From Pyrococcus sp. NA2 (GTDB lineage Archaea > Methanobacteriota_B > Thermococci > Thermococcales > Thermococcaceae): a DNA stretch of 64,000 nucleotides. How positions within the stretch are numbered: the first letter of the stretch is position 1; every line of letters starts with the position of its first letter. Positions 3,927 through 56,906 of this stretch are shown piece after piece. Position numbers and translations under genes: made by a program. The notes under the pieces are model-generated. The model had not been told where the DNA came from, ran no database searches, and saw only the letters and a list, made by a program, of their open reading frames with translations. The stretch covers positions 1,054,001 through 1,118,000 of the forward strand of contig NC_015474.1 in NCBI RefSeq assembly GCF_000211475.1, read 5' to 3'.

Positions 3927-4919
3927 TTAGAGCTCGAAGGTTATTGCCTCTATAAGTCTTATCAACTTTTCAAGATCTTCAATGTGGAGCATCTCGACTT
4001 CGCTATGCAGATACCTTATGGGAACGCTAAGAGCTAGAACTTCAGATTTCTCTTGAAAAACTGAAGCATCAGTTCCTCCTCCAGTCACCCCAACTTGGAT
4101 CTCGATGTTGTTCCTGTTTGCTATGTCAAGAACCCTCTTAGCTAAGCCCCTGGAGTATATGGCCGAGTTGTCCACAGCTCTTATCACGGGTCCTTTTCCG
4201 AGGGCAACATCTCCAGTAAGTTCGTTGCAACAGGCGAAGGAATCTATCGCGAATGCATAGTCAGGGGAATACGTATTTGCTAGGAACTTCGCACCTTTTA
4301 ATCCTATCTCCTCCTGGACAGTGAAGGCAAAGATTACCTTCTTGTCAAGTTCATGATCTACCAAGGCCTTTATCGCCTCAATTAGGGCAACAACTCCAAA
4401 TCTATCATCCAAGCTCCTCGTGCTCACGTATCTTCCATTTAGAACTGAGAAATGCTTCTTGAACACTGCAAAGTCTAGTGGCTTGACTAGTTCCAAGGCT
4501 TCTTCCTTACTTTCGGCTCCTATGTCTATAACGAGGTCATACCAGGGAACAACATCTCTTGACCCCCTTAAATTCAGGTGGGGTGGTATGGCTCCAATCA
4601 CCCCATCAACTTTTCCGTTCTCGGTTATGACGTCAACGTGCCTACCATAAAGTAACCTATCATCTATTCCACCTATCTTTCTGAACCTAAGCTTTCCATC
4701 CTCTCTGATTCCAGTTATGAGCAGGCCTATCTCATCCATATGAGCCATGAAGAGAATCTCCTTATCGCCATCACCAAGTTCAACTATCAAGTTTCCGATC
4801 CTGTCAATCTTGTAGTCTGCAAACTCTTTTATCTCTTCTATGATCTTTCCTCTTATCCTTTCTTCATAACCAGATATTCCAGGGATGCTTGTGAACTCCC
4901 TAAGCATCTCCACCAACAT
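3927..4919 (-). CDS. M42 family (TET-type) aminopeptidase
   Basis: A cytosolic cocatalytic metallo-aminopeptidase of the M42 family, 330 residues, the usual TET length. These form dodecameric tetrahedra that trim peptides released by proteasome-type proteases. Metal and catalytic residues are visible: H60 and D62 in 'MAHMDE', D171/D172 in 'SLDDR', the general-base pair E203/E204 in 'QEEIG', D226 in 'AIDS', and a late His in 'RYLHSEVE'. The ATG at 4919 follows GGGGGGT at normal distance. It lies 12 bases downstream of the 2-hydroxyacid dehydrogenase gene on the same strand. Pyrococcus has several TET paralogues with different specificities; I cannot assign which this is. Confidence 0.93.
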   Translation of the reverse strand: MLVEMLREFTSIPGISGYEERIRGKIIEEIKEFADYKIDRIGNLIVELGDGDKEILFMAHMDEIGLLITGIREDGKLRFRKIGGIDDRLLYGRHVDVITENGKVDGVIGAIPPHLNLRGSRDVVPWYDLVIDIGAESKEEALELVKPLDFAVFKKHFSVLNGRYVSTRSLDDRFGVVALIEAIKALVDHELDKKVIFAFTVQEEIGLKGAKFLANTYSPDYAFAIDSFACCNELTGDVALGKGPVIRAVDNSAIYSRGLAKRVLDIANRNNIEIQVGVTGGGTDASVFQEKSEVLALSVPIRYLHSEVEMLHIEDLEKLIRLIEAITFEL

Positions 4920-13254: not shown

Positions 13255-14194
13255 AAATATAATTCTCCTATGCCACCATAATGCTGATCCCGATTCTCTC
13301 GGCTCTGCGATAGCATTCTCGAACTTTCTCCTTCACCTCGGCTTTAAGAATGTTAGAATTGGGGTCGCCCAGAGCATAGCGAGCTATTCTCGAAGGCTCG
13401 TCCAATTTTCAAGGGTTCCAATAGAGAGAAATCCCAGGATCGAGGAGAGCATCGTATTTATATTTGACACGTCATCCCTTGAGCAACTTGAGCCCATAGA
13501 GATACCGCTAACGTCCAAAATCATCGTTATAGATCACCACGTTGAAAAAGAGGACTCAATACCCGCTGAGATATCAATTATAGATCCAACGAGGACGTCG
13601 ACGGCTGAAATAGTGTGGGAGCTTTTTAAGAAGTTCAAGTTCAGTGATGAGGAATCGGCCAAGCTGTTACTCGCTGGAATAATCTCGGACACTTCCAACT
13701 TTAGATACTCAAATGCGAAAACGTTCAAGACGGTTGCCGAGATTCTCGACCTCTATAAATTCTCCATCGGCGAGATTTCCCATCTCGTCTCACCCGTGAG
13801 CGATGAGAACATAGACCAGTCGAAGAGGATAGCCATACTCAAGGCCTGCCAAAGGATGGAGATACATAAGGTTAAGAAGTTCGTTATCGTAACTTCGAAG
13901 GTCTCAGCTTACGAGGCTCTAGCCTGCAAAGTCTTCCTACAGCTAGGTGCCGACGTTGCGATAGTTGGAAGCGAAAAGGATGGGGTTAGAATATCAGCTA
14001 GGGCGAAGGAGCATTTAGTTAAGAAGGGCCTTCACCTCGGAAAGCTCATGGAGAGAGTGGGCCCGATAATAGAGGGATCTGGAGGAGGCCATCCTGGGGC
14101 CGCCGGGGCGAATGGAAAGAGGAATTTGGATGAGGCAATAAAGTTCCTAGTTAAGGAGGTTCAAAAGTTCTTGAAGGGGGTTGAAGATGGCTAG
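13202..14194 (+). CDS. DHH-family phosphoesterase (RecJ/NrnA-like)
   Basis: A 330-residue DHH/DHHA1 phosphoesterase, the class that includes nanoRNases, RecJ-like exonucleases and cyclic-dinucleotide hydrolases. The N-terminal metal site is 'HHNADPDSLGSA', the DHH motif is 'VIDHHVEKED', and the DHHA1 substrate-binding motif is 'GSGGGHPGAAGA'. Start ATG 13202 lies inside the preceding gene, behind GGGGAAAGATA; an upstream in-frame start at 13184 is less likely. The stop overlaps the start of the zinc protein gene (ATGGCTAG). The substrate cannot be set from sequence. Confidence 0.88.
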   Translation: MKGERKLKKFLMSLRRDENIILLCHHNADPDSLGSAIAFSNFLLHLGFKNVRIGVAQSIASYSRRLVQFSRVPIERNPRIEESIVFIFDTSSLEQLEPIEIPLTSKIIVIDHHVEKEDSIPAEISIIDPTRTSTAEIVWELFKKFKFSDEESAKLLLAGIISDTSNFRYSNAKTFKTVAEILDLYKFSIGEISHLVSPVSDENIDQSKRIAILKACQRMEIHKVKKFVIVTSKVSAYEALACKVFLQLGADVAIVGSEKDGVRISARAKEHLVKKGLHLGKLMERVGPIIEGSGGGHPGAAGANGKRNLDEAIKFLVKEVQKFLKGVEDG

Positions 14195-14516
14195 GTGTCC
14201 GATCTGTGGTGCTCCCCTCAACTGGAACGAGCTAATAGAGCAGATGCTCAAGCTGGGGAATGCCGAGGAGATAATGAAGGATAGGAATGAGTTTCTTAAG
14301 TCTTTCGAATCCTTCGTTTTCAAGTGCCCCAGCTGTAATGAGGAGTTCGAGGGGAAGTACCTTCCGAGTGATGAGGCCGAGAAGGTCTTTGAGTTGATAA
14401 ACGACTTTAAAGGTTCCATAGACTGGGAGAAGAAAAAGGTGAGGATAAGGCTGAACAATCTGCTTGCCCTTGAGAAGATGCTCGAGGAGTGGGACAAGAG
14501 GGTCAAGGGGGTGTGA
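14187..14516 (+). CDS. small zinc-ribbon protein
   Basis: A 109-residue protein with two CxxC pairs, 'CPICGAP' near the N-terminus and '[10 protein letters not shown]' near residue 50, which would form one zinc ribbon split by a helical insert. The C-terminal half is helical and charged. No catalytic motif is seen; nucleic-acid or ribosome binding is the usual inference for such proteins. The start overlaps the stop of the DHH gene, and the next gene begins 2 bases after its stop, so the block is translationally coupled. Confidence 0.78.
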
Positions 14517-39074: not shown

Positions 39075-39238
39075 TTCTACCACCACAAATCTTATTATTT
39101 TGCTCCTTCATTATATATTAACTTTTTGCTCTCAAAATTTGAGGATTTTTAGGGCGTAAATTAGTTTAGAAAAGCCTAATAAGCCTCTTATGAACCGTAA
39201 AGCTTAAAAATGGTATATATCGAGTGAAAAATGGGCGT

Positions 39239-39314
39239 AGCCCCGTGGTGTAGCGGCCAAGCATGCGGGACTCTGGATCCCGCGACCGGGGTTCGAATCC
39301 CCGCGGGGCTACCA
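39239..39314 (+). tRNA. tRNA-Gln(CTG)
   Basis: The acceptor AGCCCCG pairs with CGGGGCT. The anticodon arm GCGGGA-CTCTGGA-TCCCGC gives anticodon CTG. The T loop is GTTCGAATC. CCA is encoded. It marks the left border of the accessory island. Confidence 0.95.
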
Positions 39315-39721
39315 TACAACTCCACAATTTCCCTAAACATGGCTTTCATTGCTCTGTTGAACGATTCCATGAAGACTTCTAGATTTTCTGACAAATACTG
39401 CTCTCTGAATCTTCTTCATGGTGGGTCGCGAGACCATCATATTGCCCCATCACCCAGTCGTCCTACTCATGTGACCAATGTAAGTTAGCATCCAAGAACT
39501 CGCCTGCAGTTCTGTTTAGCTTGGTTTCTCTGAGGGCCCGTTATATGTGTAAACTTTGTAACGGGTAGGCTTCCCCACTTCCGTCTTCATTATAGGACTT
39601 TCAGGGGGAGCGGTAACTCCCCACATCTTCAGCAGTCCCCATTCGGGCTTAGAACCCCACATATCGGGGACTGTCAAGCCAACATAAACATACCGTAAAA
39701 GCATTTAAAAGACAAAAGAAC
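39315..39721. other. gene-poor stretch after tRNA-Gln with one short unassigned reading frame
   Basis: About 400 bases hold no firm gene. On the minus strand 39516-39704 encodes 62 residues with Trp- and Pro-rich composition ('VPDMWGSKPEWGLLKMWGV'), no SD and no hydrophobic segment. It reads like the C-terminal tail of a lost protein, possibly a transposon protein, but I cannot show that. A second minus-strand run beside the tRNA ('SENLEVFMESFNRAMKAMFRE') looks protein-like and then reads into the tRNA gene. Confidence 0.4.
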
Positions 39722-39946
39722 CTAAATGCTCCACTTGCTGTCATCTACAAACCAGCCCAACGCAAGCGACATTGCTATAAATAGTGCGAAAACTGCTACG
39801 AACTCATATTCCCGTTCCATTGATTTCAAGATTTTCCCTGAAGTGTCAGGCAACTCTTTGGCAACATATCTTAGCATCCCATAAACGAGATTTGCGATTA
39901 TTGTGGTAACCGCAACGAAGAAGCTACTCCAGCGCTCTTCTGTCAA
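39722..39946 (-). CDS. small membrane protein (hypothetical)
   Basis: A 74-residue protein with a central segment 'SSFFVAVTTIIANLVYGML' and a second helix 'FVAVFALFIAMSLALGWFV'. The TTG at 39946 follows GAGGTGAAACAA, the same context as the start of the next small gene upstream (GAGGTGAAGCTC-ATG), which argues that the two belong together; GTG 39955 is the alternative. I know no family. Small two-helix proteins of this kind occur in mobile elements and toxin systems. Confidence 0.5.
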   Translation of the reverse strand: MTEERWSSFFVAVTTIIANLVYGMLRYVAKELPDTSGKILKSMEREYEFVAVFALFIAMSLALGWFVDDSKWSI

Positions 39947-40039
39947 TTGTTTCACCTCACCTTCTCTGCGGGTTGGAAGCCTCGCTCTTTAGAGTGGGTA
40001 GGAAAGGCCGAAACTTTTTATCCTCCATCTTCTAGAAGC

Positions 40040-40125
40040 ACGGGCAACCGTGGGGAGGGTGTCCCTTTGGGAACCCCCACCCCTCAGGGCGAGGAGGAGG
40101 TCAGGTACCTCTCCCGAGCACCAAA
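40040..40125 (+). ncRNA. candidate GC-rich structured RNA
   Basis: A TATA-like ACTTTTTATCC (40013-40023) is followed ~25 bases later by GC-rich sequence with nested foldable parts: CACGG-GCAA-CCGTG (a 5-bp stem with a GNRA tetraloop), then GGGTGTCCC-TTT-GGGAACCCCC within GGGG/CCCC, then GGAGGT-CAGGT-ACCTC. High GC in an AT-rich hyperthermophile genome is the known mark of structured RNAs. The 3' part overlaps the end of the minus-strand membrane protein gene. No family is recognised. Confidence 0.4.
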
Positions 40126-40368
40126 GATATCAACCAATGCCTCAGCAACTCCGTACAGCGGAATAATCATTCCCAACCCTGCCAACAAAACGCTCAACAA
40201 CTTGATGAATCCAAGTGGGTCATCAGAAATCCCGAGCGTTTGGAGAAGGTAAGTGTGAACGCCCTTGACAAGTAAGTAGTACAGCCAGAGCGGGCTCACC
40301 ATTGCCATCTCAACGAGTATCCAAATAAACTCTTCGAGGAATCTCAGATCATCCTTGAAGTCCCTCAT
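40084..40368 (-). CDS. small membrane protein (hypothetical)
   Basis: A 94-residue protein with an acidic N-terminus ('RDFKDDLRFLEEF') and two long hydrophobic helices ('IWILVEMAMVSPLWLYYLLV', 'FIKLLSVLLAGLGMIIPLYGVA'). ATG 40368 follows GAGGTGAAGCTC. It lies on the same strand as the 74-residue membrane protein, with the GC-rich structured segment between them. No homologue is known to me. Its place between tRNA-Gln and the defence relic suggests accessory DNA. Confidence 0.5.
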   Translation of the reverse strand: MRDFKDDLRFLEEFIWILVEMAMVSPLWLYYLLVKGVHTYLLQTLGISDDPLGFIKLLSVLLAGLGMIIPLYGVAEALVDIFGARERYLTSSSP

Positions 40369-40436
40369 GAGCTTCACCTCTACTATCGCTCGTCTTCGAA
40401 AGCCATTTAATCAATCCCGTAATTAAAGTTACAAGT

Positions 40437-41225
40437 GCGAGGCGTTTCATTGAGACCACTGAGTTTCCCGTGCGAGAAATCAACGAGAAGAGTAAGAAGG
40501 AGAAGGGCTCAGCTCGGTCTCCGTACTGGGAGATGATGTTTTACTGAACGAGAAAACCGCTCGTAGGTTCGCGCGCCGTGATAGCTGGCTCACTCTCACC
40601 TGAGGATATCGACCCCGAGAAGTTCAAAGAGGCCATCAGGCTGTGATCAAACATGAGGCTCTTCTTGAGATATTCCATCTCCTCCCAGAAGAGTTCGAAA
40701 AAGAGAAAATTAAGGCGAGGATTCCCGTCAGAATACTAGGCAAATTTGGAATAGATGAGAATGAACTGGCAATTCCCTCCGAGGAAGAGTTAATTCTATC
40801 TCAGAGAAACTTTCTCCCAACGGAAAGCATAATTGAGGCTAAGAAAAAAGCTATGGAACTTGTTATGAAGCCCGAAAGAGAATACCTACTTCAAAAGTAT
40901 GGAGAGGACACGGAAGGAGAGTTATGGAAAGTCGAGGACGTTTCTCTCCACCCCCATTATGATGTTAAGGTTCAAGAATTGGGTGAAGGCATGACGAAAT
41001 TTATTGGGGTTAAAGGACATCTCCCATTCATTTTTCATGCCGAGTTGACAACCATGGAAAGAGAGTTTGCCGAAACTCATCCCAATGAATATAGGTGTAT
41101 ATAGTGGCCAACCTTAGGAAGAGACCCATGATACTGAAGATACACAGACCATTTTCACAAAGGAAGGTACAAGGCATATCTGGTGATTCTTGATGCCTCA
41201 GGTATGGTCGAAAAAGAGCTCGAGT
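40437..41225 (+). pseudogene. deletion relic of a second DUF1156-methylase ... helicase cassette
   Basis: Bases 40437-40642 translate as a DUF1156 methylase N-terminus ('RRFIETTEFPVREINEKSKK', 'ARSPYWEMMFY', a TGA, then 'TRKPLVGSRAVIAGSLSPED'), matching residues 1-65 of the intact methylase at 44159 ('ARPPYWEMVFWWTRKPLIGARAIIAASLLPDD'). From 40643 the sequence switches to the C-terminal domain of the helicase ('SQRNFLPTESIIEAKKKAME', 'VEDVSLHPHYDV', 'GVKGHLPFIFHAELT'), matching the end of the intact helicase. A stop at 41102 and a later frameshift break it again ('IVANLRKRPMILKI'). About 9 kb of a paralogous cassette has been deleted between the two ends. Confidence 0.85.
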
Positions 41226-41370
41226 GAAAGAAAAGAGCTTAATCAAGGTTAAGTTCAGAAGGTAAAGTGTTGACTTGTGAGACCACTGGGTTCAGAACTT
41301 CACTTGATTGGAGCACAAAATAGTCTCAAAAATCCAAACGTTTTTATTATGTAGTTTGTAATTTTAAGAC

Positions 41371-42321
41371 ATGACACTCACAAAGGCAGAGCTCAGAGTG
41401 CTCTTGGCAATAGCGTCAGGGCCAATTACACTCAAAGAGTTAGCCAGTAAAATGAACCTCTCCAAGAGCACTCTCTCTATTATCCTGCACTCTCTCGAAC
41501 GAAAGGGACTCATTAATATCGAAGGAAAAAGACCGCTCAAAGCCAAACTCGCCGATAACAAGCCAACCCAGCTCCTAAGAAAAATCCTATTGATGCTCCC
41601 TAAAAACTGGACTCTCAAGGTCCTCAGTGGAAGTAGTCTCAAAATGCTCTCGGCTCTCAAAGTTGAGGAACCTCAATCCCCCTGGCTTGTTCAGCTCAAG
41701 GCTAACGTGAGCAGAGCAACACTCCATAGAGTTCTCAACGAGCTCATGGAAATGCTCATCGTTGGGAAAAAGAAAGATGGATACTTCGTCAGCGAACGTT
41801 TTGCAGTCCTCAAAGACTTCGCCGACGAGTATTTCTATCTCCAGAACTCCACTAGGACTAAAGAGTTCAACGAAAAGGCCGTCCTCGCGTGGAGTGGGGT
41901 TGAAGAACTCATTCTTGCAACGGAAACGTTCAAAGGGAAATGCTTTGGAGACTTTCAGCTCACCGGACTGGCTCGTTTCTCTGACTACGGTTTGCCTTTA
42001 ATTTCCTCGGGTGTTTACCACTACTACTGGCCGGCCAAGGAGCTTGAACTTGAAGAAATCGTTATCCATGCCCTAAAGATGGGCTACGATGCAAGGGAGC
42101 TCCTTTACGTCATTGTTCTTTTGAAAGCCCACCCGTTCAGTAAAGAGCGACTCAAACGCTTGGCTGCTAAATTTGAAGTATCCCCCATTGTGGAGGATAT
42201 TCTTGAGTTTCTCCAAGGGGAGGCCAAGTCTTATCCATTCCCCTCGCGGGAAGAAGTTGAAGAGCTTTGTAAGAGGTACTTTGGAGGTTGTGAAGGTGAT
42301 AGCGAGGGAAAGACTGATTAG
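41371..42321 (+). CDS. wHTH regulator, probable antitoxin of a nucleotidyltransferase pair
   Basis: A 316-residue protein. The N-terminus is a MarR-like winged helix ('ITLKELASKMNLSKSTLSIILHSLERKGLI'), and a second HTH-like stretch occurs near residue 110 ('ANVSRATLHRVLNELMEM'). The C-terminal 170 residues are a helical domain of unknown class. A TATA (TTTTTATTATG, ~41340-41350) lies ~25 bases before the ATG and there is no SD, so the mRNA is leaderless. The end overlaps the nucleotidyltransferase gene by 26 bases, as in AbiE-type toxin-antitoxin operons. Confidence 0.7.
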   Translation: MTLTKAELRVLLAIASGPITLKELASKMNLSKSTLSIILHSLERKGLINIEGKRPLKAKLADNKPTQLLRKILLMLPKNWTLKVLSGSSLKMLSALKVEEPQSPWLVQLKANVSRATLHRVLNELMEMLIVGKKKDGYFVSERFAVLKDFADEYFYLQNSTRTKEFNEKAVLAWSGVEELILATETFKGKCFGDFQLTGLARFSDYGLPLISSGVYHYYWPAKELELEEIVIHALKMGYDARELLYVIVLLKAHPFSKERLKRLAAKFEVSPIVEDILEFLQGEAKSYPFPSREEVEELCKRYFGGCEGDSEGKTD

Positions 42322-43009
42322 GGAGTTAGAACTTATTGATGAAAAGGCAATGTTGATGAATTCCAGTGAAATTGACCTCTACCTTATTGGCGGTGGAAAC
42401 TTGGCCTTAAGGGGGATAAAGCCCGCAACGGCCGATATTGATGTTGTCGTTAAAGATCATCGGACTTTAATGGCTCTTGAGAATGTTCTCATAAATCCTT
42501 CTCCAAAGTTCCGGACGAGTGGCGGGCTTGTTGTCTATTTGAAGGTCTTTGGTCATGAGTATGAGAAAAAACTAGGTGCAGATGCAGTTTACCAAAAGGT
42601 TGATCCAGAAATGGGAGACTTCAACCTCGACGTCTTTGTAAAACGGGTTATGAGAGGAATTCAGTTAAGTGAGGGGGCAGTAGTGCCTGAAGAGTTTCAA
42701 AAACTCAAAAGCTCAGAGTTCATCTCGTCTCGGTTGAGGATGTGTTTTCTGTTCAAGGGAGTCACGTCATTGGGCCGCTCGAAGGACATAGATGACATTT
42801 TAAGACTTCTTGAGCTCGGAGTTTATTTTGATGTGGTCTTGACGGAGATAGAGGTTCAAAGGAAGCTTCTTGAAGTGGAGACTTTTGAGAGATTGATGTA
42901 CATTCTTTTTAAGAAAATCAAGCTTGTCCAGAAGATTCTTGAGGAAAAAGGCGTGAGAAGCCGTGGTTTGGATTACTTCATAGATCAACTAAAAGGCTAC
43001 TTGGAGTAA
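42296..43009 (+). CDS. minimal nucleotidyltransferase (AbiEii/DUF6036-like), probable toxin
   Basis: A 237-residue protein with a DNA polymerase-beta-type nucleotidyltransferase core: 'LYLIGGGNLALRGIKPATADIDVVVKD' gives the GG...DxD metal motif. The rest is helical. The start is GTG 42296, eight bases after GGAGG and inside the end of the wHTH gene; GTG 42290 is an alternative. Coupled wHTH + nucleotidyltransferase genes are the plan of AbiE-type systems, in which the nucleotidyltransferase blocks growth upon phage infection. That function is inferred from layout. Confidence 0.7.
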   Translation: MIARERLIRELELIDEKAMLMNSSEIDLYLIGGGNLALRGIKPATADIDVVVKDHRTLMALENVLINPSPKFRTSGGLVVYLKVFGHEYEKKLGADAVYQKVDPEMGDFNLDVFVKRVMRGIQLSEGAVVPEEFQKLKSSEFISSRLRMCFLFKGVTSLGRSKDIDDILRLLELGVYFDVVLTEIEVQRKLLEVETFERLMYILFKKIKLVQKILEEKGVRSRGLDYFIDQLKGYLE

Positions 43010-43124
43010 AAGTTTTGAATTCAAAAAGTTCTCAAATACCAAACTAGCATAAAGCGAGAAAAATGAACAAGGTTAAAGTGTTAAAAAAAGTTCATGGAAC
43101 CGGGGTAAGTAGTGGAGCGCATTA

Positions 43125-43214
43125 ATGTTGTATCTTGTGGTGTTTGCCGTTTCATCTTCTGTTTTCTACGTTTCCGCAGAACTGAATAGTATTGAAAGTG
43201 GCTTAAGAAAATAA
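43125..43214 (+). CDS. possible 29-residue membrane peptide or gene fragment
   Basis: ATG 43125 opens a 29-codon frame with a hydrophobic core ('LYLVVFAVSSSVFYVSAEL') and a charged tail. No SD precedes it. It may be the C-terminal scrap of a lost membrane protein. The surrounding 43010-43220 gap holds nothing else. Confidence 0.2.
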   Translation: MLYLVVFAVSSSVFYVSAELNSIESGLRK

Positions 43215-43220
43215 AAACTC

Positions 43221-43649
43221 TCAGAGGAGGTTTTCAATAAGCCTGTAATCCTCCTCCGGAATTTCCCTCATGGCCTTGCCCATGAGGTGGCCACTCCACT
43301 TCTTCTTGTTCTTTATGAAGTTCAGCTTCGGAATCAGGGGTTTAAACTTCACTTCCCCGATCTTTATCGGCCTTATCTTCACCCTTATCGGATAACTCTC
43401 TCCTGGGGTATGGGACTTGAATATCCTTGTGGAGTCATTGTAGGGCTCGCTCGCGACCTCAAAGATACCAACTATCATAGGCTCTAGAACTTCGCCTTTC
43501 CTGTTTTCCTGCTTTACGTAGAATACCAGCTTATCTCCTGGCTTGACCCTCCTTATAGTGTTTTCGTGCCTCTTAGGCACGCCCCAAACGTTCTTCTCTC
43601 TAATAACTTTCCAATTATCTCTACTGGTTATGCACAACCAGTATCTCAT
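43221..43649 (-). CDS. EVE-domain protein (UPF0310)
   Basis: A 142-residue EVE (PUA-like) domain protein: '[27 protein letters not shown]', '[13 protein letters not shown]' and the hydrophobic cage region '[13 protein letters not shown]' are the family pattern. EVE domains read modified bases in DNA or RNA and often occur with restriction or defence genes. The ATG overlaps the stop of the second PUA-like gene (ATGA). The pair is divergent from the defence operon and shares its intergenic region. Confidence 0.85.
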
Positions 43650-44086
43650 TGCTCGGCCCTCCTCAAGATCTCTTCGTACTCATCCCTCTTAATATACCTT
43701 CCGGAGACAACGACGAACCTCTTCGGCTTGACCTTCTTCTTGTACTTCCTCACGTTCTTGAGCTTGATCACTAGCCATTCCCTCGACCTTCCTCCCCTAG
43801 TCTGCCACCTCTTCCTGTCCCTCTCGTACTTTCTAAGTTCATCTGGAGTTAGGAAGAGCTCGTCCTTGTACTTCCTTATTATCTCTTCGACGTTCGTAAA
43901 GTGCTCGACGCTCTCGATCTCTGCCTCCCCTTGGAATCCTTGGTCTTCCCTCGAGGCGTAGAAGATGAGCTTCATTCCGGGCTTGACCCTTAAGGTGGCC
44001 GGCTTCACGAAAACCCTCTTTCCGCCCTTGAGTATCCTATCAAGGAGTTGCTTGGGAACAGGAAAGGTCACCCCAACAATATCCAT
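43646..44086 (-). CDS. DUF365/PUA-like (ASCH/EVE-related) protein
   Basis: A 146-residue protein with a PUA-like fold: '[36 protein letters not shown]' near the N-terminus and a very basic C-terminus ('[30 protein letters not shown]'). This looks like the archaeal DUF365 family, related to EVE/ASCH domains. ATG 44086 follows GGGATGGACT; GTG 44098 is possible. It is coupled to the EVE gene, making a two-protein set of predicted modified-base or RNA binders beside a DNA methylase. Confidence 0.75.
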
Positions 44087-44158
44087 AGTCCATCCCACTA
44101 TTCCTTGGAGGGATTAAATTTTATACCTTCCCCTTGCGAAATAATTTGGGGGTTAAAC
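44087..44158. promoter_or_regulatory. divergent promoter of the EVE pair and defence operon
   Basis: A 72-base gap. On the plus strand AATTTTATACC (about 44117-44127) is a good TATA box ~30 bases before the methylase ATG, and GGGGGTTAAAC supplies the SD. The minus-strand promoter must overlap it, so expression of the two units may be linked. Confidence 0.5.
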
Positions 44159-47100
44159 ATGAGGCTAATAGAGAGCTTGAAGTTTCCCCTCTTTAAGGTA
44201 AACAAGATGAGCGAAAAGGAGAAGGGGCCCGCTAGGCCCCCCTATTGGGAAATGGTCTTCTGGTGGACGAGGAAGCCTCTAATTGGAGCTAGGGCTATAA
44301 TAGCCGCATCCCTCCTTCCGGATGATGTTGATGTTAGCAGGTTCGAGACGGCTATTGGATTGAACCAGAGCACACCTCACAGGGTCAATCCCAGGATACC
44401 GCCAGAGTGGGAGAAGTACTTCAGGGGAAAGAAGCTTCTGGATCCGTTCGCGGGCTTCGGCTCAATTCCCCTGGAAGCTTTGAGGTTAGGCTTGAACGTG
44501 ACGGCCGTAGAACTTTTACCAGTAGCTTATGTCTTCCTAAAGGCTATCCTGGAGTATCCCAGGAAGTTTGGAAAGCCCCTTGTCAAGGACGTTGAGAGGT
44601 GGGGCAACTGGATTACTGAACAACTGAAGAAGGATCCTGAGATTGGGGAGCTATACGATGATGACGTTGCGGTTTACATTGGAACTTGGGAAGTTAAGTG
44701 CCCACACTGCGGGAGGTGGACTCCTGCTATAGGCAACTACTGGTTAGCAAGGGTAAAGGACGGGAAGAGGTACAAGAGGCTAGCTTACATGGTTCCTGAG
44801 AGGAGATGTGATGATGTCGAAATAAGGATAATCGACCTGAACGAGATAATCGGCGACGTTTCAAATGCTGAGGTCAAGGGGAACGACATAATCTTCCAGG
44901 GAAGGGTTTACATTGAGAAGGTTAGGAAGGCTCTAGGGGATGGAAAGCTTAGGGAGGGGGACGTTAAGATAGACGGTGATAAGGTAATCTTCAGGGTTCC
45001 CTCTCCGAACATTGAAGCGAGGAAGAGCCAGCTCACGTGCTTGGCCTGTGGCAACGTTATAAAGTACGCCGATGAAAGCGGAAGGCACTACACAAAGAAG
45101 CCCAAGGGAATTGAGACTGAGTTCTACGTGAAGTTTGCCTTGAGGAAGTATCATGAGGGTGACGAGAGGTTTGCGAGGCAGAGGTTGCTTGTGAAGGTTA
45201 AGGTTAAAGATAAGGACTTGATTTTTGAGCCAGCCAGTAGAGAGGACAACGAGAAGCTGTGGAGGGCGAAGGAGAAGGTTAATGAGTTGATCGAGAGGAA
45301 GGATCCAGATGTGCCGAGTGAGCAGATACCTCTTTATGAAAATCGACGTATTACTCCAATTCTCGGAGCAGAAAAATGGTACCAATTTTTCAATCCCCGC
45401 CAACTCCTCACGCTGATTAAGATTGTAAGGCTAATCCGCGAGGTTGGGAAGAGGGTTGAGGAGGAGAAGCTCAGGGAGGGTTGGGACGAGGAGAGGGCCT
45501 TTGAATATGCGGAGGCTGTTGCGACGTATTTGAGCATGGCGATGTTGAAATATGCATATTACGATTCAGTTGTCACTAGGTGGGATTCCACATGGTGGAA
45601 GATTGGAGAAACTATGTCTACAAGAGGAATCGCAATGAATTGGAACTGGACTGAAAGTCCTTGGTTTGGGGAGTTTGGAGGGTTAATAAAAACACTGCCC
45701 GCGTTATCTAGGGCTCTTAACTACCTCATTACCGCCCTCGCCTCCTCAATCCAGAAGACCCTCACCGACTTCACGAAGACCAACACCGTGAAAGTCCTCC
45801 AGGGCGACGCGACCTCTCTCAATCTCGGTGAGAAGTTCGACGTCATCGTAACCGACCCGCCGTACGCCGATGATGTCCCATACACCGAGCTGAGCGACTT
45901 TTACTACGTCTGGCTCAAGCGCGCTTTGAGCGACTCTGATGGAAAGAAATTGATTCCAAGGTTCCACAAGACGGCCTTCTTCAAGAAGGTTGGGCAAAAG
46001 TGGGTTGAAATTAAAACACAATGGCAGGAATTTGCGAAGAAGGAGGTCTCCATGGATCCCCAAAGATTCGGAAATAAAGAAATCGCACAACAACACTTCG
46101 AAAACCTCTTTAGCCAGGCATTCGTTGCAATGCGTGAGCACCTAAAAGATGATGGCCTTTTAGTTACTTACTATGCCCACACAGATCCAGAAAGCTGGCT
46201 AACGCTCCTGAACGCTGGCTGGAGAAGAGCTGGGCTCCAGATAGTCAGGGCATTCCCACTATCAACTGAATCATCCACAAGCATAGTGAAGAGGGGGAAG
46301 CTAAGCTTAGACACTTCAATAGTGGTTGTGTGGAGGAAGCCGAGTGAGAGGAGGAAGGTGGACATATTCGAGCTGAGCAATGTAATAGCCGAGAAGTCCA
46401 AGGAATCCGCAAAGCTCTACATGAAGTACGGTTACAAGGGCCTTGACCTGCTCTACGGAGTAATGACGTCAATCCTCGAGGAGGTCACGAGATACGGAGA
46501 GGTCACGTCTCCAAAGGGCCCGCTCTCAACGAGGGAGATACTTGAGAGGCACGTTTATCCCGCAACGATTAGGGGAATAGTTGAGGCTATCGCCGACGTT
46601 AAGGGGAAGATATCATCAAACGAGGGCCTGTTCTACTCGGCATACAAGGTTCTCTTCGGCAATGCATCCCTGGGGGCCAATGATATAATACTTCTCAACC
46701 TAGCGACCTTCACGAATGCGAAGTTGCTTGTAAAGAGCAAGATTCTAAAGGAAGGAACTTCGTCGAGCAAGAAGGAGTTTAAGCTGTACTCACCAGATCT
46801 TATTGGAGAAACTGTCCTTGAGCCGAAGGGATTCCAGATCTTCCTCAAGGAGAAGGGCCTAAACCCCCAGGATCCGAATCCGAGGAATTCCATAGATGTC
46901 CTTCACCTGCTCGAGTACTACTCCCTCCTTGGAAGGGAAGTTCTCCAGGATAGGATTGAGGAGTTGAGAAGGAAGAATCCATCCTGGGTTGAGGAGGCAA
47001 TTGCGATGGCAAGGCTGATATCTTCCTACTACAAAACGGTCTATTCCCAGATGTTCTCACCCCTGGGTGTAGTGGTTAAGGATGAGAGGGCAGTTGAAGG

Positions 47101-47179
47101 TGAGCTGAAGAAGGATGGCCACTACGAGGTAGTTCTTATGAGCAGGCTCGTCAGGACTTTGGGAGGTGGTTCGATTTGA
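44159..47179 (+). CDS. DUF1156 DNA methyltransferase (defence operon)
   Basis: A 1006-residue DNA amino-methylase. After the DUF1156 N-terminus ('RPPYWEMVFWWTRKPLIGARA') come SAM motif I 'DPFAGFGSIPLEALRLG' (from residue 95), two CxxC knuckles ('CPHCGRW' near 181 and 'CLACGN' near 294) and the catalytic motif DPPY at ~566 ('VTDPPYADDVPY'), so N6-adenine or N4-cytosine is the target. ATG 44159 lies behind GGGGG; longer versions run into the divergent promoter. Its stop overlaps the next gene's TTG (ATTTGA). It would mark host DNA in a helicase-methylase-ATPase system. Confidence 0.9.
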   Translation: MRLIESLKFPLFKVNKMSEKEKGPARPPYWEMVFWWTRKPLIGARAIIAASLLPDDVDVSRFETAIGLNQSTPHRVNPRIPPEWEKYFRGKKLLDPFAGFGSIPLEALRLGLNVTAVELLPVAYVFLKAILEYPRKFGKPLVKDVERWGNWITEQLKKDPEIGELYDDDVAVYIGTWEVKCPHCGRWTPAIGNYWLARVKDGKRYKRLAYMVPERRCDDVEIRIIDLNEIIGDVSNAEVKGNDIIFQGRVYIEKVRKALGDGKLREGDVKIDGDKVIFRVPSPNIEARKSQLTCLACGNVIKYADESGRHYTKKPKGIETEFYVKFALRKYHEGDERFARQRLLVKVKVKDKDLIFEPASREDNEKLWRAKEKVNELIERKDPDVPSEQIPLYENRRITPILGAEKWYQFFNPRQLLTLIKIVRLIREVGKRVEEEKLREGWDEERAFEYAEAVATYLSMAMLKYAYYDSVVTRWDSTWWKIGETMSTRGIAMNWNWTESPWFGEFGGLIKTLPALSRALNYLITALASSIQKTLTDFTKTNTVKVLQGDATSLNLGEKFDVIVTDPPYADDVPYTELSDFYYVWLKRALSDSDGKKLIPRFHKTAFFKKVGQKWVEIKTQWQEFAKKEVSMDPQRFGNKEIAQQHFENLFSQAFVAMREHLKDDGLLVTYYAHTDPESWLTLLNAGWRRAGLQIVRAFPLSTESSTSIVKRGKLSLDTSIVVVWRKPSERRKVDIFELSNVIAEKSKESAKLYMKYGYKGLDLLYGVMTSILEEVTRYGEVTSPKGPLSTREILERHVYPATIRGIVEAIADVKGKISSNEGLFYSAYKVLFGNASLGANDIILLNLATFTNAKLLVKSKILKEGTSSSKKEFKLYSPDLIGETVLEPKGFQIFLKEKGLNPQDPNPRNSIDVLHLLEYYSLLGREVLQDRIEELRRKNPSWVEEAIAMARLISSYYKTVYSQMFSPLGVVVKDERAVEGELKKDGHYEVVLMSRLVRTLGGGSI

Positions 47180-50100
47180 AGTACGAGGTTTGGGATGATG
47201 TTCTCGATGAGAGCTTGGATGAGCACTCGGCTCCAGAGTTAGGTGACGTGGTAACTGGCAAGGCCCACAAAATTTACACTGACCCCAAGGAGTTCTTCAA
47301 GAGAACCTACTTTACGCGCCCAATGCTCGAAATCCTGGAGCACGTTCTCAAGACGTTTAAGGGAGAGGAGAGGCAGAACGTATTCCTAATCTATTCCCTC
47401 TTCGGTGGTGGGAAGACGCACACAATGCTGACCATCTACCACGCTTTCAAGGATCCTGGGGCCCTAAAGGATGAAGAGGTTCTTAGGTATTACGACCCTG
47501 AAAAAAGGAAGAGGATAAGTGATATAGCTGACACAATTTCGTCCCTCCGGGACGTGATTATAATCCCGATCTACGGGAAAGGTGAGCTACCAAGGCCCAG
47601 GAAGCCGAAGGGCAATATAAGGACGCTGTGGGGTTACATGGCAGACCTACTTGGAGAGTACGAGAAGATTAGGGTTGAAGATGAGACATTGACCAGCCCG
47701 ACTCCAGATCTAATAAGGGAGATAATCGGGGGGAGGAAGGTTCTCTTCCTGATAGATGAGATAGTCGACTACGTCGATAACCTTCGAAAGTCCGCGGATG
47801 AGGAGGAGAGGAACTACTCAAGGAACGTGAGCAAATTCTTGGATCACCTTGCAACGGCCCTTCTCGGCTCTAACTCCGTTTTAATCGTGACCCTTCCAAT
47901 GGATGAGGAAGGAGGGATCATCAAGACAGAGAAGGAGTACGACAGGGAGGTCATCCTTGAGATAAGGAGGGCTCTGAGGAGGGTCGGCGGAACCAGGATG
48001 TACTCGCCGGTTAAGACAGAGGAGGATGAAAACGAGCTCGTTGAGATACTCAAGAGGAGGATATTCAAGAGGATAAGTGAGGATGAGAAGGCAAGGGTAC
48101 TGTCACGGCTGGGGAAGGCCTACTCAAACGAGGAGATATTCGGGAGGGAGGCGAGGGTCGAGGAAGTTAGGAAGAGCTATCCCTTCCACCCGGAGTACGT
48201 AAATGTCCTTAGGACGATAATAGAGAGGGTTGGCCTCCAAAGGACGAGGGACTTAATTAGGATAACCAGGATAGTCGTGAGGGGGATACTCAAGGAGGAG
48301 CCTTCCCTTATTATGCCCCACCACATAAACCTGGACGACGATAAGATAAAGGGAAGCTTCTTCTCGGAGAGCACGATATACGGTGACTACTGGACGGTCT
48401 ATGAGAGCGATGTCAAGGAGAATAAACTCAAGGGCTTTTCCAATCCAGAGCTCGCGAGGCTAATCCTGACCTACGTCTTCCTGAAGACCTATCCATACGA
48501 TTCCCCAACATCCCTCCCGGAGTTCCCGACGCCCAAGAGGATAGCTTGGGGAGTTTACGAGCCGAAGCTCTTCGAGGAGAAGGGCTGGAGCATTGTTGAG
48601 ATAAGGGATGCGGTTGATGAGATCAGGGAGAGCGTCAAGTTCATGTACTTAAACAAGAAGGATCCGTACCTATGGTTCTGGAGGGTTGCGAACGTATCCC
48701 AGATGGTCAACAGTAAGGTTGAGGAGCTTCTAGAATCAAGGGCTGGAGAGGTCGTCCAAGAGCTAGTTAAGATGGTTCAGAGGTTCGTGAAGGAGAGGAA
48801 GGGCCTTAGAGGTAGGGGATCGAAGATCGAGGATCACGTGACCTTCTTCAAGAACAATAACATAGTAGTGGGCAGGGAACCCCAGGAGTTCTACGATACT
48901 CCAGAGTACAAGCTCATGGTTCTCGTTAGGGATGACGTTGACGAGGACACCTTGAGGAGAATAATCTTCATGCACGGAGGAGGGGCGAGGACTTACAGGA
49001 ACACGATAGTCGTTGTGTATCCCTCAGAGAATGGAATAGACGAGATGATGAAGACCTTGGCAGTTGCAATGGCCTGTGACGAGGTTAAGAGGAGCATCAG
49101 GGAGAAGTTCGGGAAGTATGGAAAGGACGTCGTGAACATACAGATGAGCATGGTTGAGGAGATAAAGAGGAAGGCCCTTGAGGATCTAGAGAATCAGATG
49201 GTTCAATACTTCAGGATGGTTGCCTATCCGGATAAGTATGGCCCTAGGGTTGTCCAGGCCCAGGCCTCATCGAAATCAGTGATCGAGAACGTTTACTCAG
49301 CCCTAGTCAGCCACGGCAAGATAGTTGATGACTTCGACTTCGATTGGCTCGTGGAGAGGCTCAGCGAGGTCAACGTGAACATCTTGAGGCCGGAGGGTTA
49401 TCCGGTTTCTGAGTTGGTCTACTTGATAATGAGCAATCCTGCGCTTCCAATGGTTAGCGTTGAAGCCCTATTCGAGGCCATAAGGGAGGCCGTGAGAAAC
49501 CTCGAAATAGGAATCGAGAGGAAAGGAACAATATACTTCAAGAGGATATACAAAGAGGTTCCAAAGGGAGAGGAGGAGGGCGATCCCCCTGGAGCGATAA
49601 AGATGGAGGATGTAATCCTTCCAAGGGAGGAAGCACTCAACAGGCAGGTCGCGGAGATACTCAAGAATGAGAGCGAGGAGGTCAGGAGAAAGGGAGGGAT
49701 GGATTACAAGGTGAGGAAGTGGTACGAGGTGTATCTACCAAACTCGACCCATGGAATCCCCCTGAGGACGATAGTTGAGGAGGGAAGGGTAAAGGAGGAG
49801 TACCTTGACCACGTTCTCCAGGGTTATATAGTTGAGAGGGTTGAGGAGGTTCCAGTGACGAGGGGAGAGTTCTACTTGGAGGTTAGTGACGGCATAGTCA
49901 AGGGTAAGCCGGGAGATGTAGTTACGCTCGAGGTAAAGATCAAGCCCGTTGGAAGGGAACCCTTCAAGGTTGAGCTTAGACCCAGCATTGGAGAGCTAGA
50001 TTCTTACGAGGTTGAGCTCGAGAACGGCGAGGAGAGAGCTGTAACTTGGACGATAGTAGTTCCTAGCGAGAGAACTATAGCGGTAATTGAGGGGAGGAGC

Positions 50101-50493
50101 GAATCTAAGGAGAGGAAGGTCGAAGTTACCATAATCCCAGCTATGGAGGAGGAGATAATTGAGGTCAACGAAGTCAAAGAGGAGCACAAGGGGTACGTTC
50201 TAACCGAGATACGTGACATAGGAAGCGTTGACGAGCTAGAGCTTATTCCAATGGAGGGAAAGGTAAGTGGGAGCATGAGGATAGAGAGGCCCTTCTGGGA
50301 ATCTAGGTTCGAGGGCTTGGACTTAGAGGTTGCCAAGTACATCCTAAAGGAGGTAGAGGAGGTTTTAGGATCGAAGGCTCACCTGGATGTTAGGGTTATC
50401 GGAGAGGCGGTTATAGATGACCTACTCTTTGAAAAGCTGAGGGCCCTCAACGGAAAGGTTACCTTCAGGATCAAGAAGGGTGAAGGGGAATGA
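47176..50493 (+). CDS. DUF499 family ATPase (defence operon)
   Basis: An 1105-residue ATPase of the DUF499 family. Walker A is 'SLFGGGKTHT' (K80), Walker B 'VLFLIDEIVDYV' near residue 190. The AAA-type core occupies ~1-450; the rest is helical, with a late beta domain ('EFYLEVSDGIVKGKPGDVVTLEVKIKP', near 900). TTG start behind GGAGGTGGTTCGA, overlapping the methylase stop. DUF499 ATPases occur with DUF1156 methylases and SNF2 helicases in predicted antiviral islands. Its exact step is unknown; it may be the motor or sensor of the complex. Confidence 0.9.
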   Translation: MKYEVWDDVLDESLDEHSAPELGDVVTGKAHKIYTDPKEFFKRTYFTRPMLEILEHVLKTFKGEERQNVFLIYSLFGGGKTHTMLTIYHAFKDPGALKDEEVLRYYDPEKRKRISDIADTISSLRDVIIIPIYGKGELPRPRKPKGNIRTLWGYMADLLGEYEKIRVEDETLTSPTPDLIREIIGGRKVLFLIDEIVDYVDNLRKSADEEERNYSRNVSKFLDHLATALLGSNSVLIVTLPMDEEGGIIKTEKEYDREVILEIRRALRRVGGTRMYSPVKTEEDENELVEILKRRIFKRISEDEKARVLSRLGKAYSNEEIFGREARVEEVRKSYPFHPEYVNVLRTIIERVGLQRTRDLIRITRIVVRGILKEEPSLIMPHHINLDDDKIKGSFFSESTIYGDYWTVYESDVKENKLKGFSNPELARLILTYVFLKTYPYDSPTSLPEFPTPKRIAWGVYEPKLFEEKGWSIVEIRDAVDEIRESVKFMYLNKKDPYLWFWRVANVSQMVNSKVEELLESRAGEVVQELVKMVQRFVKERKGLRGRGSKIEDHVTFFKNNNIVVGREPQEFYDTPEYKLMVLVRDDVDEDTLRRIIFMHGGGARTYRNTIVVVYPSENGIDEMMKTLAVAMACDEVKRSIREKFGKYGKDVVNIQMSMVEEIKRKALEDLENQMVQYFRMVAYPDKYGPRVVQAQASSKSVIENVYSALVSHGKIVDDFDFDWLVERLSEVNVNILRPEGYPVSELVYLIMSNPALPMVSVEALFEAIREAVRNLEIGIERKGTIYFKRIYKEVPKGEEEGDPPGAIKMEDVILPREEALNRQVAEILKNESEEVRRKGGMDYKVRKWYEVYLPNSTHGIPLRTIVEEGRVKEEYLDHVLQGYIVERVEEVPVTRGEFYLEVSDGIVKGKPGDVVTLEVKIKPVGREPFKVELRPSIGELDSYEVELENGEERAVTWTIVVPSERTIAVIEGRSESKERKVEVTIIPAMEEEIIEVNEVKEEHKGYVLTEIRDIGSVDELELIPMEGKVSGSMRIERPFWESRFEGLDLEVAKYILKEVEEVLGSKAHLDVRVIGEAVIDDLLFEKLRALNGKVTFRIKKGEGE

Positions 50494-50933
50494 GCGAGGG
50501 AGTGCTCTACATGGTCAAGCTCAAGTACATAGAGAAGGCGAAGCTAGCGGTAAAGAGGGAGCAGAAGCTCGCCGAATTCCTCCCTGTGTTTCTAACTGGA
50601 GGTCAGAAGATTCCTGGGAAGGTTGAGGTAAGAACAAGGGTTTACCTTCCAGAGTTCCTTGAGTTTGCTGAGGATCTCGGATGGGAGGTAAAGAAGAGGT
50701 ACCTAACCACGGAGGATGACTACGCTTACCTTAGGTTGCTAGTTTATGCCGTGGCGATGTCGGTCATTAAGGATCCGGTCAAGTGGGATCAGCTGAAGGC
50801 CCACGTTCTATCCATGGAGGCGATACCCCTTAGGTACTGGTCCTCTAAGTTCAGGAACGTTTATTGGAAGTACAAGAATAGAGGAAAGCTATCCTACGTG
50901 GCTAGGAGGTTCCTGGAGGTGGAGCTAATTTGA
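50490..50933 (+). CDS. 147-residue protein of the defence operon
   Basis: A 147-residue basic, mostly helical protein with no motif I recognise ('VRTRVYLPEFLEFAEDLGWEVKKRYLTTEDD', 'RYWSSKFRNVYWKYKNRGK'). It is locked into the operon: its ATG overlaps the DUF499 stop by 4 bases and its stop overlaps the helicase TTG (ATTTGA). It could be a DNA-binding or specificity subunit, which is only a guess. The name DUF3780 is used for a small protein in related operons; I cannot confirm that match. Confidence 0.7.
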   Translation: MSEGVLYMVKLKYIEKAKLAVKREQKLAEFLPVFLTGGQKIPGKVEVRTRVYLPEFLEFAEDLGWEVKKRYLTTEDDYAYLRLLVYAVAMSVIKDPVKWDQLKAHVLSMEAIPLRYWSSKFRNVYWKYKNRGKLSYVARRFLEVELI

Positions 50934-53824
50934 ACTTACCCGAGGCAATCCTGAGGGAGTTCCTCCTGCACTCCCCAGACCTCTTTTACCTATCCCTTGC
51001 GAGGCCTGGGAGGAGGAAGATAAGGCCTTTCCTTCACCAACTTCAACCCCTTTACCACGCCATGGTTCATAGGCCAATTAGGATTTTCATAGCTGATGAG
51101 ATCGGGCTGGGAAAAACGATTCAAGCCCTTGCAATAGCTAGATACCTTAACCTTAAGGGGGAGGCTAAGAGGATCTTAATACTCGTTCCAAAGATACTGA
51201 GGGAGCAGTGGAGGGAGGAGATTGAGAGGATCGGTGTAAGACCAATAGTCATCGAGAGTGGGGAGGAAGTCGAGGAGAAGCTTAAGAGGGATGGCTTCTT
51301 CGTGGTTTCCATAGACCTTGCAAAGATGTACAGTCACAGGGAGAAATTCCTTAGGAAGGATTGGGATCTGGTTATAGTGGACGAGGCCCACAACGTGACG
51401 ATTGGAACCCAAAGGTACGATTTCGTGAAGGAACTCATCGGTAGGAGGGAGGACCTGAACGTAATATTCCTCTCAGCAACGCCCCACAGGGGGGATTCCA
51501 AGGACTACCTTGCAAGACTCTTACTCCTCGATCCCACCCTTGTAGATGACTATCAAAGGCTTGACTCACCGGAGTTCTACAGGAGAACCATGGGGACTAT
51601 AGTATTCAGGAGGACGAAGCAGTTGGTGAACAAGCTTGAGGGTAAGGAGATATTCAAGAGGTGCCACTTTAGGGCAGTTGTCGTTGGAATAACCGAGGAG
51701 GAGAAGGAGTACTTTAGGAAGTTAAATGACGTTCTGTACGATCTCATCAAGAACGCCCAGAAGAATTCGCCGATAGCCCTTTTAGCAATTCTCGTGAATA
51801 AAAGGGCATCTTCCAGCTACTCCTCCGCCATGAAGACGCTCAGTAAGATAGTTGAGAGCCACTACTTGAAAAGGGAGGCAAATCCGGAAAGGGTTCAGGA
51901 GTACATAGAGAAGCTCTTTGGTCTTGGGTACGATGACATTGACCTTGAGAGCTTTTCGGAGTACGATGAGATAGTTGAGAAGATAATTGGGGAGTACTCG
52001 GCTGTTCTTCGAGAGAAGCAGGTTAAAGAGTTTAAGGAGCTACTTGACCTTCTCAAGAGGATAAGGGTCGACAGTAAGATCGAGGTCGTGGCAAACATCG
52101 TTAAGAATCACGTTGAGAAGGGTGAGAAGGTTATAGTTTTCACGGAGTTCAAGGACACGCTCGAGTACCTTAGGAGCAAACTCTCTAGATTAGTGGGATT
52201 GAATGAGGACGAAGTTTCAATTCTGCATGGGGGAATGTCCTCGGATAAAATTAGGGAAGAAATTAGAAAGTTCGAGAGGAATGGGAAGTTGTTGATCTCT
52301 ACAGATGTTGCCTCGGAGGGGCTGAACCTTCAGATCGCGAGTGTTCTAATAAACTACGAGGCTCCCTGGACGCCGATAAAGATCGAGCAGAGGGTCGGTA
52401 GGGTTTGGAGGATAGATCAGGAGAAGGATGTTAAGGCCTACACCATATTTCTCGACACCGAGGTTGACATGTACGTTCTCAACAACCTCTACGAGAGGAT
52501 AATGAACATTAGGGAAGTTCTTGGAGAAGGGCCCAGGATCGGATTACCAGTTCCAGGGGAGAGGATACTCGAGGGGGACTTCGAAACCCTATGGAAGGAC
52601 ATCCCCGAAGAGTTCGAGAGTGGCGAGAAGGTGAGCGAATACGACATAGGGTACGCCATACTTAGGAGGGATATAGAAGGATATAGAAAGGCCATCTTGA
52701 ACACGTTAAAGATTCTGAGGCAGAACATAAGGGGGGCCGTTCTTCAGGAGAGAATCGAGAGTATAAGGAGGGACCTTGAAGCGATAGCCGATGAAAGGAT
52801 TGAGGAGATAGTGAAAAGATACGTTAGAGAGTTGATGGGGAAGAACGTTCCCGATGTATCTCCGATACTCCACAGGATTATGTTGAGTGGTGACGAGTTT
52901 AGAAAAGGGCTTAGGGTTGGAGTTAAGAAAGGAAAGGGAGAGCTTTTCTCCATTAAGCTCGTAAGGAATGGAAAAGAACTGCACAGGTTCCCTATCATGG
53001 TGGTTGACGGAGAGGTCATCTATGGGGCTAAGCTACTTGAGAGGCTAATAGACATCCTCAAGGATGGGTACGTAATTCTAGGCGATTCCGAATCCCATTC
53101 GAGCTACGAGGCTAGGGTGATAACAATAGGTAGAGACGTGATATACAAGGTTCGCGAGAAGTACAAGAGGTACGATAGATGGCTCAAGAGGAAAGGGCTG
53201 AAGAGGGGTAACTTATTCGCCGAAACGATGATAATTCCAGAGAAGGTTATTGAGTTTGAGCCCATAGGGGACAAGCTAGAGATCGCCAAGATAATCCCCA
53301 TTCAGGTGCTCGAGCTTTTGAACTTCTCGGAGGACGATGTTAGCTTACCAACGAGGAACGATCTTATGCTTCTCGAGAGGAACTTTGTCCCCTTGGAGGA
53401 TATCCTTAGAGCTGAAAGGAAGGCGATGGAAATTGTAATTGAGATCGAGAAGAAAAGGATGAGGGAGAAGTATGGAGACGTTGGATGGGAAGTTAGAGAT
53501 GTGTCACTCCACGAGCACTACGACGTGCTAGTTAGGACTCCCGAGGGTGAGAAGTACATTGAGGTCAAGGGTCATCTTCCGTTCCTCCTTCAAGCCGAAC
53601 TCACAGAAGCTGAGGTTAGGTTTGCGAGGGAGCACGAGGAAAATTATTGGCTCTACATAGTTGCAAACTTGAGGAAGAGGCCAGTTATCTTAAAGATTTT
53701 TAAACCCTTCAGCAATCCAAGGGTGCTACTCGTTAAAGATGGGGAGGACGTTGATGTTACGAAATTAGTCAAGGCAAATGTGAGGGAGAAGGGAAGGTTT
53801 TTGTTCTCATTGACATCGAGTTAA
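50930..53824 (+). CDS. SNF2-like DNA helicase with C-terminal DUF3883 domain (defence operon)
   Basis: A 964-residue superfamily 2 helicase. Motif I 'DEIGLGKTIQ' (K62), motif II 'DEAH' at 151-154, motif III 'LSATPHRGD', motif V 'STDVASEGLNLQIA' and motif VI 'QRVGRVWRID' are all intact. The C-terminal ~110 residues are a DUF3883 domain ('VRDVSLHEHYDVLV', 'YIEVKGHLPFLLQAELTEAE'), a possible PD-(D/E)XK-like nuclease or DNA-binding fold (D and ExK present). TTG start overlapping the previous stop. It is the expected effector of the system. The TATA box of tRNA-Leu overlaps its stop. Confidence 0.92.
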   Translation: MNLPEAILREFLLHSPDLFYLSLARPGRRKIRPFLHQLQPLYHAMVHRPIRIFIADEIGLGKTIQALAIARYLNLKGEAKRILILVPKILREQWREEIERIGVRPIVIESGEEVEEKLKRDGFFVVSIDLAKMYSHREKFLRKDWDLVIVDEAHNVTIGTQRYDFVKELIGRREDLNVIFLSATPHRGDSKDYLARLLLLDPTLVDDYQRLDSPEFYRRTMGTIVFRRTKQLVNKLEGKEIFKRCHFRAVVVGITEEEKEYFRKLNDVLYDLIKNAQKNSPIALLAILVNKRASSSYSSAMKTLSKIVESHYLKREANPERVQEYIEKLFGLGYDDIDLESFSEYDEIVEKIIGEYSAVLREKQVKEFKELLDLLKRIRVDSKIEVVANIVKNHVEKGEKVIVFTEFKDTLEYLRSKLSRLVGLNEDEVSILHGGMSSDKIREEIRKFERNGKLLISTDVASEGLNLQIASVLINYEAPWTPIKIEQRVGRVWRIDQEKDVKAYTIFLDTEVDMYVLNNLYERIMNIREVLGEGPRIGLPVPGERILEGDFETLWKDIPEEFESGEKVSEYDIGYAILRRDIEGYRKAILNTLKILRQNIRGAVLQERIESIRRDLEAIADERIEEIVKRYVRELMGKNVPDVSPILHRIMLSGDEFRKGLRVGVKKGKGELFSIKLVRNGKELHRFPIMVVDGEVIYGAKLLERLIDILKDGYVILGDSESHSSYEARVITIGRDVIYKVREKYKRYDRWLKRKGLKRGNLFAETMIIPEKVIEFEPIGDKLEIAKIIPIQVLELLNFSEDDVSLPTRNDLMLLERNFVPLEDILRAERKAMEIVIEIEKKRMREKYGDVGWEVRDVSLHEHYDVLVRTPEGEKYIEVKGHLPFLLQAELTEAEVRFAREHEENYWLYIVANLRKRPVILKIFKPFSNPRVLLVKDGEDVDVTKLVKANVREKGRFLFSLTSS

Positions 53825-53861
53825 CTTTATAAACCTCCATATTTTTAGCAAGAAAGTGAGT

Positions 53862-53949
53862 GCGGGGGTTGCCGAGCCTGGTCAAAGGCGGGGGACTCAA
53901 GATCCCCTCCCGTAGGGGTTCCGGGGTTCAAATCCCCGCCCCCGCACCA
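53862..53949 (+). tRNA. tRNA-Leu(CAA)
   Basis: An 88-base class II tRNA with a long variable arm (CTCCCGTAGGGGTT region). The acceptor GCGGGGG pairs with CCCCCGC. The anticodon loop CTCAAGA gives CAA. CCA is encoded. The TATA element (ACTTTATAAACC) lies at the helicase stop. It closes the accessory island on the right. Confidence 0.95.
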
Positions 53950-54062
53950 CATGTTCTTCTGAATGTCTAAGGGTAAATTAAGGCCCTATTACAACTTCTC
54001 TTGAATGTAGTCCGCTAAATGAGTCTATGTTCTTTATTACACCAACCTCTACCAAGGGTAGC

Positions 54063-54094
54063 TTTTAAATAGTTGAAACGTGAGTATTATACTC

Positions 54095-54095
<1 letters not shown>
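54063..54095 (+). promoter_or_regulatory. promoter with perfect 15-bp palindrome at the DUF234 ATPase start
   Basis: TTTTAAAT (54063-54070) is a TATA box. TGAGTAT-T-ATACTCA at 54081-54095 is a perfect palindrome with one central base. It covers the predicted transcription start and the first base of the ATG, so a bound dimer would block initiation; autoregulation is plausible. Confidence 0.6.

Positions 54096-56906
<2,811 letters not shown>

Follow-up and report, generated by a model that had tools for sequence, protein, structure and literature searches.

The closest described system to the locus reported here is the DUF499-centred BREX-related (BR) type 1 system, earlier known as Hma, to which this gene set belongs by the account given in the part of PMC12839542 that treats such systems. 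An archaeal operon of COG1743, DUF499 and SWI2/SNF2-nuclease genes, with EVE proteins, was noted in 2020 in a passage of PMC7641849, and in the relevant parts of both sources the C-terminal domain of the helicase is viewed as a restriction-type nuclease.

We analysed a stretch of 64,000 nucleotides (hereafter the window) from Pyrococcus sp. NA2 (contig NC_015474.1, positions 1,054,001 to 1,118,000), and compared it with 94 genomes of the family, its own included (G000), the other 93 being searched for relatives. The window holds an intact cassette and, upstream of it, a relic of a second one (Table 1). By the sequence features tested, the intact cassette qualifies as a type 1 BR/Hma system: its AAA+ ATPase matches DUF499 (PF04465, 1025 bits), its N6-methylase has a DUF1156 N-terminus (PF06634, E = 2.5e-10) and matches HmaB (E = 3e-56), and its Snf2 helicase joins SNF2/Helicase_C to a C-terminal NOV_C (DUF3883) domain in Pfam, as restriction-type nuclease. 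No PLD/HKD match was returned by Pfam for this helicase, an N-terminal HKD being a type 2 trait, and none to DUF3780 (type 2) or PglZ (type 3) for the genes of the cassette that were scanned. The intact cassette is likely the one working now, and the relic is a former, decayed member of this same known kind of system, the DUF499-centred BREX-related type 1 (Hma). A third, distant locus of the genome, at 1.44 Mb (L071; G000 C1:1441332-1443425), carries a DUF1156 methylase together with a gene of ATPase size and an Snf2 helicase that has NOV_C; neither half of the relic is closest to it.

Table 1. Features of the tRNA-bounded segment, in window coordinates (aa, amino acid).
Feature	Position	Strand	Basis
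tRNA-Gln(CTG), left border of variable segment	39239..39314	+	ARAGORN; adjoins tRNA-Leu in five relatives
Intact ORF (97 aa) probably encoding a small membrane protein, transcribed divergently from relic methylase	40084..40377	-	71% aa identity to same-place ORF of G067 cassette
Former methylase promoter/leader, still alignable	40378..40438	+	DNA alignment with G067
16-bp gap, start-codon region of methylase gone	40438/40439	+	DNA alignment with G067
Remnant of DUF1156 methylase N-terminus (some 68 codons)	40439..40643	+	84% aa identity to G067, 57% to intact neighbour
TGA replacing Trp invariant in 14/14 intact homologues	40545..40547	+	
Deletion junction, exact base not fixed; 9.2 kb of G067 missing	40640..40657	+	
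Helicase C-terminal (NOV_C/DUF3883 nuclease) remnant, to own stop	40658..41265	+	64% aa identity to G067, 46% to intact neighbour; PF13020 E = 5e-7
Glu to Gly in invariant E-V-K (ExK) motif of nuclease	41006..41008	+	Alignment with intact cassettes
1-bp deletion and TAG replacing Trp	41091..41094	+	Alignment
Frame-changing insertion, about 4 bp, near 41158	41156..41161	+	Alignment
31-bp deletion just ahead of C-terminus	41222..41223	+	Alignment
wHTH gene and overlapping nucleotidyltransferase-like gene, a separate element that lies after the relic and before the intact cassette	41371..43009	+	Related wHTH genes at other loci of many Thermococcaceae
EVE-domain and DUF365 genes accompanying the intact cassette	43221..44098	-	Pfam; beside most cassettes examined
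Intact cassette: DUF1156 methylase, DUF499 ATPase, 147-aa ORF, Snf2 helicase with C-terminal nuclease	44159..53824	+	Pfam, PADLOC, intact homologues
tRNA-Leu(CAA), right border of variable segment	53862..53949	+	ARAGORN, synteny

Identity of the relic

When the proteins of the intact operon were compared with the window, only the first and the last gave significant matches to the segment. Residues 2-68 of the methylase (44159) match 40443-40643 with 57% identity (E = 1.8e-19, 86 bits), while the C-terminus of the helicase (50930) matches 40511-41092 with 37% identity (E = 3e-27, 111 bits) and again, past a frameshift, 41023-41169 (E = 9e-6). Chance similarity is ruled out, the best score from 500 shuffles of the region being 26 bits. 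These matches bear out the first-pass annotation, which had read the segment as the N-terminus of a DUF1156 methylase and then, from about 40643, the DUF3883 C-terminus of the helicase, that is, as the first and last genes of the operon 3 kb downstream. It had also described a single stretch, and both parts are indeed there, but they lie in different reading frames, with a TGA directly after the junction (40644-40646) ending that of the methylase. The borders it gave have shifted outward on both sides: the helicase remnant does not end at 41225 and continues to the gene's own stop (TAA, 41263-41265), and homology to the related cassette of a Thermococcus MAG (G067) begins at about 40101 rather than 40437, taking in the divergent gene for a small membrane protein.

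Aligned with the intact products and with the DUF1156 and DUF3883 proteins of the 94 genomes, both halves find their place in these families, and G067 (contig JALTBN010000053.1, L057) is clearly nearest to both. Its cassette is complete on one contig and colinear with both ends of the relic and with the small divergent gene, and is 9.2 kb longer inside; window positions 40101-40640 align to 3993-4548 of the G067 locus with 79% DNA identity, and about 40660-41223 to 13755-14315 with 66%, a finer alignment continuing to the helicase stop. A fused gene conserved elsewhere, also considered, was rejected: the form occurs in 0 of the other 93 family genomes, and the genus offers no other full-length DNA match. 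With a probability of roughly 0.9, we consider the segment to be a pseudogene made of the outer ends and the small gene of a G067-lineage, Hma-like cassette, with the whole history of deletion and decay set out below.

The 97-aa ORF occurs in two of the 94 genomes, this one and G067, and none of the other cassettes examined has it alongside; because of this distribution it most likely travelled together with the G067-type cassette lineage. No match was found when it was sought on plasmids. Its predicted product is probably a membrane protein, and it is a rather doubtful proposition that this is a lineage-specific BR accessory or regulator that outlived its operon and has since taken on a different role, perhaps one connected with the second cassette. 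A second small membrane-type ORF (39722-39955) adjoins tRNA-Gln and has a 47% match near the cassette of G086.

Proposed formation of the relic

We suggest that a cassette of the G067 lineage would have been acquired laterally into the spacer between tRNA-Gln and tRNA-Leu, that one deletion would then have removed about 9.2 kb, from approximately methylase codon 72 to helicase codon ~797, and that small lesions would have decayed the ends that were left. The same spacer would also have received, probably later, another cassette, this one of the P. abyssi lineage. No short repeats were found at the junction near 40643, and within the G067 sequence the sole match is one of 7 bp that does not lie at the breakpoints.

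That a single deletion of a single cassette made the relic is something we infer, and the two halves do differ in composition and divergence. Silent-site divergence from G067 is 0.51 (pS) in the 5′ methylase half and 0.85 in the 3′ helicase half (Fisher 2e-5), and GC3 is 66 and 41, respectively, so that a single history leading back to G067 may not apply to both halves. These differences are what could be expected if the halves came from two cassettes joined by recombination or by successive insertions, an origin that we nevertheless regard as unlikely, given that the two halves have nearest relative, order and orientation in common, that protein identities of 84% (methylase) and 64% (helicase) are an ordinary pair for the family, and that intact cassettes show similar discordance at silent sites. 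Between the cassettes of G015 and G027, for instance, the methylase and helicase values are 0.30 and 0.79, and between those of G015 and G039 they are 0.64 and 0.20; the discordance among these three (L069, L063, L067) points to gene exchange between cassettes. Since intact cassettes show the same discordance, the difference between the halves is most simply read as the outcome of exchange between cassettes that preceded the deletion.

Decay and probable loss of function

Set against G067 and other intact cassettes, the relic carries at least seven inactivating lesions (Table 1), the 9.2-kb internal deletion relative to G067 being one of them. A deletion of about 9 kb and a nonsense codon in place of Trp had been proposed at first to explain the relic; both are present, and the other lesions come on top of them. 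The start is lost, there are premature stops and frameshifts, and the internal genes are missing, as in a pseudogene; of a complete methylase, ATPase and helicase only the two ends are left. Most likely, the relic has no function. Among invariant methylase sites 5 of 34 are changed, a raised count, and relative-rate tests detect faster protein change in the methylase half only, with most but not every outgroup. For the helicase half these tests gave no significant speed-up, and for this reason the rate of decay is not counted as proof.

Within the PDB, the modelled C-terminus of the intact helicase (mean pLDDT 86) comes closest to Holliday junction resolvases, a group of PD-(D/E)XK nucleases, at a moderate level (E ~0.01, TM 0.3-0.5); a profile of the nuclease region gave no useful match to the sequences of solved structures. 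Because the resolvase-like fold of the model agrees with the published view of a restriction-type nuclease, the Glu of the E-V-K motif, mutated in the relic, is probably a catalytic residue. The 153-aa open frame at 40643-41104, with its GTG start, 153 open codons and NOV_C match, could be taken for a live stand-alone nuclease-domain gene, which is very improbable in view of the Gly now at this invariant position, of the C-terminus frameshifted away, and of the finding that such a short open form is present in 0 of 93 other genomes. Degeneration of such cassettes recurs in the family: in G007 a solitary piece of helicase C-terminus (L058 8802-9743) has TAG stops in place of Trp at two positions, and the helicase of G028 is frameshifted.

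The tRNA-bounded spacer and its two cassettes

Separate maximum-likelihood trees were built for the two retained stretches. The relic and G067 form a clade with support of 87/94 in the methylase tree and 100/99 in the helicase tree, and the intact neighbour joins G001, P. abyssi, which we take to be strain GE5, with support of 99/95 and 92/89, respectively. As the relic is thus sister to G067 while the intact neighbour groups with P. abyssi, it is a separately descended cassette and not a copy of the neighbour, as the first-pass annotation had held in calling it diverged rather than a recent partial copy. A recent partial duplication of the neighbour, for which the same gene ends in the same order 3 kb apart might speak, can be dismissed almost entirely, being contradicted by the separate supported clades in the trees of both halves, by identities that are only 57% and 46% with the neighbour but 84% and 64% with G067, and by the lack of the small membrane gene beside every other cassette examined.

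Both cassettes lie in one 14.5-kb insert between the two tRNA genes, which are 60-170 bp apart in G002, G003, G004, G005 and G007. Besides the intact cassette and the relic, the insert contains two small membrane-type ORFs, the wHTH-nucleotidyltransferase pair and the genes for EVE and DUF365. The corresponding gap of P. abyssi is filled by 14.9 kb of unrelated genes, its own cassette being elsewhere; this spacer is a repeated insertion site. Among the genes in the P. abyssi spacer (G001 C1, L072, L073) are glycosyltransferase-like and surface-type ones. An integrative element at a tRNA gene would be recognizable by duplication of the tRNA end, but a search of 39150-54100 found no direct repeat in which the 3′ end of the tRNA recurs at the opposite border, nor were there repeats marking the ends of the island.

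The wHTH and nucleotidyltransferase-like genes between the two cassettes are possibly a mobile, AbiE-like toxin-antitoxin pair, a guess from the gene types. Homologues of the wHTH gene, 50-68% identical, occur at other loci in many Thermococcaceae, and P. abyssi has a fossil of it with stops (G001 C1:1522486-1522741). An ATPase-like gene adjoining tRNA-Leu (54080-55504) is intact here and is split by frame changes in P. abyssi.

Replacement of one system by a relative at the same spot, as originally proposed, is borne out in its location, since a single tRNA-bounded insert holds both, but not in its order: that the relic arrived before the intact cassette is again what we infer. The comparison turned up no relative that carries a full cassette at the relic's spot. 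It is a familiar fact that defence genes turn over in islands, so that the value of the locus is that of a clear case and not of a new principle. It is clean in that two lineages of one system type, each of its own descent, share one spacer, one dead and one intact, and an intact outside relative, G067, lets the dead cassette be read against it. It shows one way in which such a cassette dies, with the core gone and the outer ends left, and also that the tRNA-Gln/tRNA-Leu spacer takes different cargo in different species.

Among its nearest counterparts, the G067 cassette (JALTBN010000053.1) shares with the relic its colinear order, small divergent membrane-protein gene included, and differs in being complete, in another genome and between different outer flanking genes. 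The G007 remnant is likewise the lone helicase C-terminus of such a cassette, but it belongs to the intact neighbour's lineage, lies at another locus, and no methylase end was found with it. With BR type 1/Hma, as described in the pertinent part of PMC12839542, both the intact cassette and that of the relic's donor type share the DUF1156 N6-methylase, the DUF499 ATPase and the Snf2 helicase with its C-terminal restriction-type nuclease, whereas the relic keeps only the start of the methylase, about 68 codons, and the tail of the helicase; these Thermococcales cassettes also carry an ORF of 147-175 aa that this part of the description does not name. The COG1743-DUF499-SWI2/SNF2-nuclease-EVE operon, in the corresponding passage of PMC7641849, has the same gene set plus stand-alone EVE genes and fits the intact neighbour well, a decayed copy being a feature of the relic that this passage does not include. 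The relic and its neighbour are thus a clear local record of the loss of a defence system, not a new kind of system.
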